Source: Patescibacteria group bacterium
GTDB lineage: Bacteria; Patescibacteriota; Minisyncoccia; UBA6257; GWB1-50-10
Length of the DNA: 50,501 bases
Assembly: GCA_030017555.1 (NCBI GenBank)
Contig: JASEIC010000004.1
Coordinates: 1-50,501, forward strand
Reading direction: 5' to 3'
The notes beneath the pieces are model-generated. The model saw nothing but the letters and a program-made list of their open reading frames with translations. It was not told where the DNA came from and did no database searches. Made by a program: the position numbers and the translations under genes. Numbering within the stretch: the first letter of the stretch is position 1; the number at the start of each line of letters is the position of its first letter. Below, one piece after another: positions 41,371-43,531 of this stretch.

Positions 41371-41937
41371 ATGGATAAAGGAATCCTTGATAAATTTAAA
41401 TTTAACCGCTTGGCAGAGAAAATGCGGAATGGCGATGAACGTGCCGCCCAAACGCTTTATAAAGAGCTTATTGATAAGGTTTATGGTTTTTGTTTAAGCC
41501 GCGTGAGGGAAAAAGCCGCTGCTGAAGATTTGACTCAAGATATTTTTGTGAAATTAATCGGCAAGATTGGAACATTTGATAAAAAGCGCGGTAATTTTTT
41601 GGGTTGGTTTTGGCAACTTGTGAGAAATACGCTTACGGATTATTACCGGAGTGGCGGGCGAAATGTTTTGTCTTTTTCCGAATTTCCGGAAGAAGCAAAA
41701 ATTGAAGAAGTTGCTTCTTACGATATTCGCGATCAGCTTCAGCAAAAAATTGAATGTATAAACCTAAGTGAACTCATAAGAACTTTTGCGGCAGACGAGC
41801 AAGAACTTTTTGAGTTTAGGTTTGTTGCCGAACTGCCTTATGAGGAGATAAGTAATATTATTGGAAAATCTGAAGGCACATTACGCGTTGCCGCAAATCG
41901 TTTGAAGTCAAAAATAAAAAATAGTTTTAAAATATGA
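41371..41937 (+). CDS. ECF-type sigma factor
   Basis: A 188-aa sigma-70 family protein with only regions 2 and 4. Region 2 (about 20-95): YKELIDKVYGFCLSRVREKA, AEDLTQDIFVKLIGKIGTFD, GWFWQLVRNTLTDYYR. Region 4 (about 135-186): LFEFRFVAELPYEEISNIIG followed by SEGTLRVAANRLKSKIK (HTH). It directs RNA polymerase to a special promoter set. The next gene overlaps by 4 bp and encodes a membrane protein likely to be its regulator. Confidence 0.92.
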   Translation: MDKGILDKFKFNRLAEKMRNGDERAAQTLYKELIDKVYGFCLSRVREKAAAEDLTQDIFVKLIGKIGTFDKKRGNFLGWFWQLVRNTLTDYYRSGGRNVLSFSEFPEEAKIEEVASYDIRDQLQQKIECINLSELIRTFAADEQELFEFRFVAELPYEEISNIIGKSEGTLRVAANRLKSKIKNSFKI

Positions 41938-42686
41938 AATTGCCTAAAGAATTTAAAACTACAAAAGAGTTTAATGAAAAAACGAATTCAATTTTCTTGA
42001 ACGCATATCGCGCTAAATTCGGCATTCATCATAAAACAGCATCTTTTGTATTTCGCTATTTTCTTCGCGGCGCTATTACGGGCGTGGCTTTTATGCTTGT
42101 AATTGGCAGTACGGCAGTTTTTGCGGATCAACAAAACGTAAACCCAGATCATCCGCTTTATCCACTAAAGCGTTCCTATGAATCAGTAAATTTAGCTTTA
42201 AGCAAAGAGAGTGAAAAACCGGTAGTTTATTTGAAATACGCGGAAAGACGGTTTGGTGAAATACGCGAGATTAAACTTCAGAATAAACAACATAAAAATA
42301 TACCCACTTTGATTAATGATTTAAGAGAAGACCTAAAAAAATCTTTTAGTACTTTGGAGAATGAGCCGTTAGAAATTAAATTAACTTCTGAAAATCAATC
42401 AGCAATGTCAAGAGTCTCAAACGTGATTCTTGCGACAAGTTCATTAGAAGAAGACCAACCGCCCACTCCAGCTAATCGAAAGGATAATTTACGTAACAAT
42501 AGTAAGCGTGAGTCGTCTGCTAAAGCAGAGAAGAATATCGCAAAGAATAAATCCATTTGTAAGTCTTGGCGCGAATTAATTGGCAGTGAATTTCCTGAAG
42601 TAAGGCAGCTTATTGAAAATCAGCCTAATTTTATGCAAAGGTTTGAAAGAGGTTGTTCGCCGATAATTCAAAAAGTAGAAGATTGA
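41934..42686 (+). CDS. DUF5667 membrane protein, probable anti-sigma partner
   Basis: A 250-aa protein. The cytoplasmic N-terminus (1-45) is followed by one membrane segment (about 47-65, FLRGAITGVAFMLVIGSTAV) and an outside domain starting NPDHPLYPLKRSYESVNLAL, the DUF5667 signature. The tail is charged and helical, with three late cysteines. Overlap with the sigma gene (ATGA) and topology fit an anti-sigma factor. Direct binding to the sigma factor is inferred only from this arrangement. Confidence 0.75.
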   Translation: MKLPKEFKTTKEFNEKTNSIFLNAYRAKFGIHHKTASFVFRYFLRGAITGVAFMLVIGSTAVFADQQNVNPDHPLYPLKRSYESVNLALSKESEKPVVYLKYAERRFGEIREIKLQNKQHKNIPTLINDLREDLKKSFSTLENEPLEIKLTSENQSAMSRVSNVILATSSLEEDQPPTPANRKDNLRNNSKRESSAKAEKNIAKNKSICKSWRELIGSEFPEVRQLIENQPNFMQRFERGCSPIIQKVED

Positions 42687-42690
42687 TATA

Positions 42691-42719
42691 TTGACGAAAA
42701 ATCTGTTTAGCATTATATT
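42691..42719 (+). promoter_or_regulatory. sigma-70 promoter of the attenuated acetyltransferase unit
   Basis: TTGACG (42691-42696), a 17-nt spacer and TATATT (42714-42719) give one of the best promoters in the window. Transcription would start around 42726, giving a ~220-nt leader before ATG 42947. Confidence 0.75.
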
Positions 42720-42767
42720 GCTATTATGAAATATTTATTAAAATGTCATATTACATTTAGCGCTTGG

Positions 42768-42839
42768 ATGAATCTCGTGTGCGACGAGGCTTATTCTTCG
42801 TTGTCTAACCAAGGTGTTTTTATGTTTATTAAATCCTAA
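42768..42839 (+). CDS. leader peptide of the acetyltransferase attenuator, 23 aa
   Basis: ATG 42768 opens a 23-codon frame starting MNLVCDEAYSSLSNQGVFMF and ending at TAA 42837-42839. An in-frame ATG at 42726, at the predicted transcription start, would give 37 codons. The frame runs across the first arm (42801-42822) of the alternative hairpins, so ribosome position can decide which hairpin forms. It is called from position and logic rather than homology. Confidence 0.6.
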   Translation: MNLVCDEAYSSLSNQGVFMFIKS

Positions 42840-42902
42840 CTTAAATATTTACTTCCGTCCTTAAAAACACCTTAGCTAGACAAAGAAAGGTGTTTTTCTT
42901 TT
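42801..42902 (+). promoter_or_regulatory. transcription attenuator with mutually exclusive hairpins
   Basis: Segment 1 (42801-42822, TTGTCTA-ACC-AAGGTGTTTTTA) pairs with segment 2 (42862-42883, TAAAAACACCTT-AGC-TAGACAA) over 19 bp around a 3x3 internal loop. Segment 2 (42863-42873) pairs equally with segment 3 (AAGGTGTTTTT, 42887-42897), a perfect 11-bp stem followed by CTTTT, a terminator. Segments 1 and 3 are identical in this core. A ribosome moving through the leader peptide covers segment 1 and lets 2:3 terminate; a stalled one leaves 1:2 free to antiterminate. Confidence 0.75.
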
Positions 42903-42946
42903 GTCTAGGCAAAAAAGCACATTAAAAATCAAAGAAAGGAGCAGTT

Positions 42947-43531
42947 ATGCGTAGAAAAGATAAAATAATATTCTTGAAGGGTGAAAAAGTTATTTTGCGA
43001 CCGCTTCGAAAAAATACCGATTTAGAAAAAGCATTGCGTTGGATTAATGATCCGGAAGTTAATCAATATTTGAGCATTTATTTTCCCATTAATGATAAAA
43101 AAGAAGAAGAATGGTTTGATGGTTTATATAAAAACGATGATAATTTGCCGTTTGCAATAGAGACTTTAGATGGTAAATTCATTGGCGTTATCGGTTTGCA
43201 TCGGATTAACTGGAAAGATCGGGTAGCAACAACCGGCGCTTTGATTGGTGAAAAAGATTATTGGGGCAAAGGATATGGTACCGATGCTAAAATGACTCTT
43301 TTAAATTATGCTTTTAATGCGCTAAATTTGCGTAAAATTTGTTCAGCGGTTATTGAATATAATAAACGCAGTTTGCGCTATAGTTTGCATTGCGGTTATA
43401 AAATTGAAGGCTGTTGGAAAAAACAGATTTTTAAGAAAGGGAAGTATTGGGATGAAATTCTGCTTGGTATTTTTAGGAAAGATTGGTTGAAAATTTGGCG
43501 AAAATACGAAAAAACAGGAAGAATTAAATAA
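42947..43531 (+). CDS. GNAT N-acetyltransferase (RimJ/RimL-like)
   Basis: A 194-aa acetyltransferase using acetyl-CoA. GEKVILRPLRKNTDLEKAL, RWINDPEVNQYL and FAIETLDGKFIGVIGLHRIN lead to the acetyl-CoA loop GEKDYWGKGYGTDAKMTLLN and LNLRKICSAVIEYNKRSLRY. This is the RimJ/RimL/SpeG subgroup, which includes ribosomal-protein, polyamine and antibiotic acetyltransferases. AAGGAG (42936-42941) is a near-perfect SD 5 nt before ATG, unusual here. The inducible-style leader suggests response to translation inhibitors. Confidence 0.85.
   Translation: MRRKDKIIFLKGEKVILRPLRKNTDLEKALRWINDPEVNQYLSIYFPINDKKEEEWFDGLYKNDDNLPFAIETLDGKFIGVIGLHRINWKDRVATTGALIGEKDYWGKGYGTDAKMTLLNYAFNALNLRKICSAVIEYNKRSLRYSLHCGYKIEGCWKKQIFKKGKYWDEILLGIFRKDWLKIWRKYEKTGRIK

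Follow-up and report, generated by a model that had tools for sequence, protein, structure and literature searches.

In the trp attenuator, four RNA segments act together with a leader that carries a run of regulatory codons, and the genes under control form a biosynthetic operon. In Firmicutes, the erm(K) and mef-mel attenuators place a leader ORF, an antiterminator and a terminator 5' of a resistance gene, and mef-mel includes an efflux gene (PMC5418344). Mycobacteria use leaderless short ORFs with contiguous cysteine codons as attenuators that respond to cysteine, according to Canestrari et al. (2020) as cited in PMC9031893. The uORF of the E. coli toiL-topAI-yjhQ operon reacts to several classes of ribosome-targeting antibiotics, with tetracycline stalling ribosomes at its start codon (PMC12121999).

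Region 42691-42946 of the window (the whole 50,501-nt stretch of patescibacterial DNA analysed here) is, with high probability, a ribosome-mediated transcription attenuator of a GNAT acetyltransferase gene, with translation stress as its most likely signal. The observations behind this reading are the ORF, all pairings with their covariation, the family of related elements and the genes that they precede. To our knowledge, almost nothing is known about how the uncultured bacteria of the candidate phyla radiation (CPR) regulate their genes. Our literature search on leader peptides, attenuation, uORFs and leaderless transcripts turned up no paper that deals with these topics in Patescibacteria, CPR or Parcubacteria, and a survey of the CPR resistome does not mention leaders (PMC8651080).

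The promoter, leader frame, antiterminator arm and terminator of the original prediction were all recovered in place (Table 1), with comparative evidence far beyond chance, and the proposed Shine-Dalgarno site was present before the GNAT gene. The inverted repeat formed by segments 1 and 2 was 26 nt long and 88% complementary, and that of the two terminator arms was 11 nt long and 100% complementary. The core AAGGTGTTTTT was identical at 42811 in segment 1 and at 42887 in segment 3, as had been noticed. The claim that segment 2 pairs equally with either partner did not hold, as the antiterminator reached about -22 to -23 kcal/mol and the terminator -10.1 kcal/mol. The masking of segment 1 by segment 0 and the fourth arm were absent from the original prediction. 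Of 200 dinucleotide shuffles of region 42750-42910, 199 folded less well than the native sequence (z -3.5). Near the site, no Rfam family reached its gathering score and the only matches were at chance level. Promoter-like matches in the stretch were also at chance level (21 found, 19.9 expected from shuffles), so the promoter assignment in the window rests on the comparison with the family. Since one sequence cannot prove a switch either, comparative work was needed. Just 5' of the attenuator promoter (41371-42686), an ECF-type sigma factor gene overlapped a gene for a DUF5667 membrane protein; a 54% identical homologue of the latter protein was found in a genome of the same genus.

Table 1. 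Parts of the attenuator and of the gene behind it, in window coordinates
Feature	Position	Strand	Basis or remark
Promoter, TTGACG - 17-nt spacer - TATATT	42691-42719	+	-35 at 42691-42696, -10 at 42714-42719; same -35/-10/ATG spacing in relatives
Leader ORF, 37 codons, MKYLLKCHITFSAWMNLVCDEAYSSLSNQGVFMFIKS, predicted leaderless	42726-42839	+	ATG 6 nt past the -10 box
Segment 0, AGCGCUUGG, masks segment 1 via 42809-42818	42759-42767	+	Fold of 42726-42824; family covariation
Segment 1, antiterminator 5' arm, within leader ORF	42797-42822	+	Inverted repeat, covariation
Segment 2, antiterminator 3' arm; 42863-42873 doubles as terminator 5' arm	42862-42887	+	Inverted repeat, covariation
Segment 3, terminator 3' arm and U-rich tract (runs on CTTTTG)	42887-42897	+	Inverted repeat, covariation
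Segment 4, partner of 42876-42884	42900-42908	+	Inverted repeat; third conserved helix, weaker covariation
Shine-Dalgarno site AAGGAG of GNAT gene	42936-42941	+	Sequence
GNAT acetyltransferase, 194 aa, PF13302, SpeG-like fold	42947-43531	+	Domain search, structure comparison

The GNAT was nearest in sequence to spermidine N-acetyltransferases, and its fold matched SpeG with a TM score of 0.77 at 27% identity. It scored 52.7 bits against the SpeG model NF011709, below the cut-off of 218, and stayed below all antibiotic-acetyltransferase cut-offs. By these comparisons, the enzyme looks SpeG-like. Its relatives were patchily distributed in the order (23 of 99 and 34 of 244 genomes). Across 84,980 scanned genomes, 80 GNAT loci were recovered, mostly from Parcubacteria/Paceibacteria as judged by title, and one distant GNAT (31%) turned up in a scan of viral_contigs. 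The GNAT was absent from the same-genus genome G001, where homologues of its flanking genes sit at contig ends. Most patescibacterial GNAT copies were preceded by a promoter of the sigma-70 type, a short ORF and a terminator, an arrangement that was absent 5' of the non-CPR GNAT homologues. Promoter, leader ORF, antiterminator and terminator followed each other in the same order at 42 patescibacterial GNAT loci, with 16-31 nt between the leader stop and the terminator.

When segment 1 was paired with the segment 2 of its own GNAT locus, the mean energy was -20.75 kcal/mol, compared with -13.0 kcal/mol for swapped and -11.35 kcal/mol for shuffled partners; the best of 2000 permutations reached -15.3 kcal/mol, far from the value for own partners. 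RNAalifold chose the antiterminator in an alignment of 20 elements, and 15 of the 18 pairs had changed on both sides with the pairing kept. In counts on the named structure, the antiterminator was 90.3% paired, compared with 33-52% for slid versions, and it was 90.8% paired in 38 sequences fitted to a covariance model. The terminator helix, which uses the segment 2 arm of the antiterminator, covaried too. An arm shared by two mutually exclusive helices, each maintained through compensatory changes, is the signature of an attenuator. The third helix joins the terminator loop to the downstream arm; it was kept in relatives with weaker covariation (86% paired in 20 sequences) and would form only after readthrough. 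Segment 1 lies inside the leader ORF, and the family median from its start to the stop codon was 33.5 nt. The early leader codons in turn hold an RNA pairing with segment 1 (own -13.4, swapped -8.6 kcal/mol; 62 loci), and none of 5000 permutations was as good; with this protector, the scheme becomes trp-like, with four segments. The element thus has the defining parts of an attenuator, namely a leader ORF, an exclusive terminator and antiterminator that share an arm, an arm inside the ORF and a protector. Covariation, together with conservation in tens of genomes, lends strong support to the attenuator logic originally proposed for leader frame, antiterminator, terminator and GNAT.

The covariance model was trained on GNAT copies only and then applied to 244 genomes of the order. 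Besides the GNATs, strong matches with the parts in the same order were found 5' of 14 MFS transporter genes. By NCBIfam, the best model for nine of these was TetA(P) or Tet(40) tetracycline efflux, all below the curated cut-offs; the other five were assigned by sequence similarity. Three further matches in the order lay in GNAT operons (L134, L144 and L146). Seven preceded other genes, among them a GAPDH-II-like gene (L138), a prephenate dehydratase gene (L153) and genes for small membrane or unknown proteins; the GAPDH-II-like, prephenate dehydratase and small membrane protein targets are not resistance genes. Matches at E <= 1e-3 were obtained in 31 of 384 genomes of the class, where the downstream genes were GNATs, six MFS, one ABC exporter and a few others, and several of these GNAT loci coincided with those of the 84,980-genome scan. 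Beyond the class, matches were mostly 5' of MFS or GNAT genes on inspection of the proteins. No match at E <= 1e-3 was observed in 12 non-CPR genomes. Antisense matches, the mirror image of the inverted repeats, were left out. The element is widespread in Patescibacteria, and the view that it is unexpected in a CPR genome is wrong.

Several of these loci differed in what follows the attenuator. In L134, L144 and L157, the gene behind it encodes a membrane protein of 60-62 aa, with a GNAT gene next in L134 and L144, which suggests a two-gene operon of membrane protein and GNAT in these two. Unrelated phosphatase-type genes (His_Phos_1, Ocnus/Janus) lay directly behind the attenuator in L146 (1633-2053) and L180 (1675-2013), and the GNAT closest to the window copy was found about 1.1 kb downstream in G103, the genome of L146. 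The ORF of L138 (422-1513, - strand) showed weak similarity to glyceraldehyde-3-phosphate dehydrogenase of type II (archaeal) and scored far short of the cut-off for that family.

All 45 covariance-model matches, picked without regard to ORFs, carried an ATG-started frame into segment 1, compared with 5.6 ± 2.2 expected. In a scan that permitted gaps of 3-15 nt, 26 of the 27 loci with a good promoter had their ATG 6-9 nt past the -10 box, and for 14 of the 27 the gap was exactly 6 nt. Since transcription usually starts 7 nt past the -10 box, the transcript would begin at or just before the ATG, and the leader is predicted to be leaderless. The original prediction allowed a leader of 23 or 37 codons. 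The window ATG at 42726 shares the 6-nt gap of the 14 relatives, favouring the 37-codon frame over the 23-codon start at 42768. No run of codons for a single amino acid was found between segments 0 and 1 in the GNAT or MFS leaders, the window leader included, and the residues enriched in the sensing zone (N, G, M, K and A) were scattered. The lack of such a run makes starvation for a single tRNA unlikely as the signal for the main group.

In the mechanism that we propose, RNA polymerase would start at or next to the AUG of the 37-codon leader ORF, and a 70S ribosome would enter the leader without a Shine-Dalgarno site; this leaderless initiation is predicted, as is termination in vivo. With no ribosome on the leader, segment 0 would mask segment 1, segment 2 would pair with segment 3 and transcription would stop. 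An unhindered ribosome would cross segment 1, which would refold on segment 0 behind it or stay covered, and the terminator would form. A ribosome stalled or slow to initiate at the early codons would cover segment 0 and free segment 1; the 1:2 helix would then break the terminator and turn the GNAT gene on. Work in E. coli has shown that tetracycline traps ribosomes at start codons, where their downstream edge lies at +16 to +18, and that it induces an operon controlled by a uORF (PMC12121999). At most loci, a ribosome trapped in this way on the leader start codon would extend over the first part of segment 0. The signal would most likely be translation stress, for example from a compound that targets the ribosome and is cleared with the help of the downstream enzyme or pump. 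That the element precedes pumps and an acetyltransferase is consistent with ribosome-targeting compounds or with translation stress in general, and a signal of ribosome stress or antibiotics is our best inference.

Other explanations of the same layout were weighed. In an amino-acid attenuator of the trp, his or pheA kind, shortage of one charged tRNA would stall the ribosome on its leader codons. Such a system shares the four-segment logic, but it fits poorly with leaders in which no residue forms a run and with GNAT and efflux genes, which are not biosynthetic, and we consider it improbable. The locus that comes closest is L153 (G142; match 1501-1604, - strand), 5' of the prephenate dehydratase gene, with the leader cluster NFYFAGYF just before segment 1. 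This leader is possibly a Phe-sensing version of the attenuator platform; however, it is one case only, its total of F and Y was not above that of several other leaders, and the reading was not retained. The SpeFL leader peptide arrests the ribosome with ornithine, and a nascent peptide that binds a small molecule such as a polyamine could arrest the ribosome here as well. The closeness of the GNAT to spermidine N-acetyltransferases in sequence and fold would suit such a sensor, as would an N-terminal motif that recurs in the leaders (e.g., NRHMN and HRCQMN, resembling [NCHY][RH][QH][MIL]N). However, this motif coincides with the RNA pairing to segment 1, covaries with it and is explained by it, and in 5 of 38 loci segment 1 is read in another frame with the RNA kept, both of which argue against a specific nascent-peptide sensor; the same element also stands 5' of MFS pumps and other genes. 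We judge a peptide sensor to be somewhat less probable again than an amino-acid attenuator. Since RNA pairing explains both the motif and the segment 1 codons, the leaders single out no particular stall codon or class of drug.

The helices alone would yield a terminator/antiterminator pair and no Rfam family matches them, and a switch that works independently of translation (a riboswitch or an antiterminator bound by an RNA-binding protein), with the ORF incidental, was also considered. The ATG-started frame in every one of the 45 matches, where about six were expected, and the fixed distance of the ATG from the -10 box are difficult to reconcile with an incidental ORF, and the sequence between the arms showed no aptamer core that was both conserved and unpaired, leaving such a switch very unlikely. 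Finally, a long, nearly perfect inverted repeat with a weak terminator in the window might be no regulator at all but, for example, what is left of a mobile element, or simply an upstream terminator. No second copy of the repeat was found elsewhere in the genome, on which ground the mobile-element reading was rejected, and layout and covariation were conserved across orders and classes. Absence of regulation is barely credible for the family, and for the window it could amount only to a decayed single copy.

Within the family, the window copy of the attenuator was a weak one. The window terminator (-10.1 kcal/mol) ranked 41 of 42, with a family median of -19.0 kcal/mol, and its U tract was interrupted. 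The pairing of segment 0 with segment 1 (-8.0 kcal/mol) was among the weaker ones. When segment 1 was left out of the window RNA, the lowest-energy fold was 2b:4 instead of the terminator. The weak terminator, the weak protector and the 2b:4 fold indicate that the window copy may be leaky or decaying.

The element provides a defined RNA switch in the CPR that can be searched with a covariance model, and it marks genes that these cells may use against translation inhibitors. It would show ribosome-sensing attenuation on leaderless translation far beyond Actinobacteria and Firmicutes. On balance we lean, by a small degree, toward a broader reading, in which Patescibacteria share a modular leaderless-uORF attenuator that serves as a general sensor of translation stress and stands in cis 5' of individual defence genes (SpeG-like acetyltransferase, Tet(40)-like MFS pumps and ABC exporter). 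If true, these genes would in effect form a distributed resistance regulon that has no protein regulator of its own.

Compared with the systems described so far, the element is like the trp attenuator in its protector 0:1, antiterminator 1:2 and terminator 2:3 and in a leader ORF that runs over segments 0 and 1. It differs in having no regulatory codon run and in not serving a biosynthetic operon, with L153 as a possible exception. The mycobacterial attenuators, as far as they are described in PMC9031893, share with it a leaderless short ORF (here predicted) and the control of downstream genes by translation speed; unlike them, the element has no cysteine run and its output is an intrinsic terminator. 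A uORF before the regulated genes is common to toiL-topAI-yjhQ and the element, and the drug response known for toiL would be shared only by inference; in contrast to the element, toiL carries a Shine-Dalgarno site and works through translation and Rho termination, and its first target is a toxin (PMC12121999). The likeness to erm(K) drawn in the original prediction is apt in the sense of how the system works, and extends to mef-mel, since a stalled ribosome would favour the antiterminator in each (PMC5418344). The likeness drawn to vmlR is weaker, as no dedicated leader peptide is detectable there (PMC5418344). Unlike erm(K) and mef-mel, the element occurs across Patescibacteria, its leader is predicted to be leaderless, its targets are a SpeG-like GNAT and Tet(40)-like MFS transporters, and Rfam gives no sign that the sequences are related. 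On all testable features, the element is a ribosome-mediated attenuator, and it is at most a candidate drug-resistance leader.
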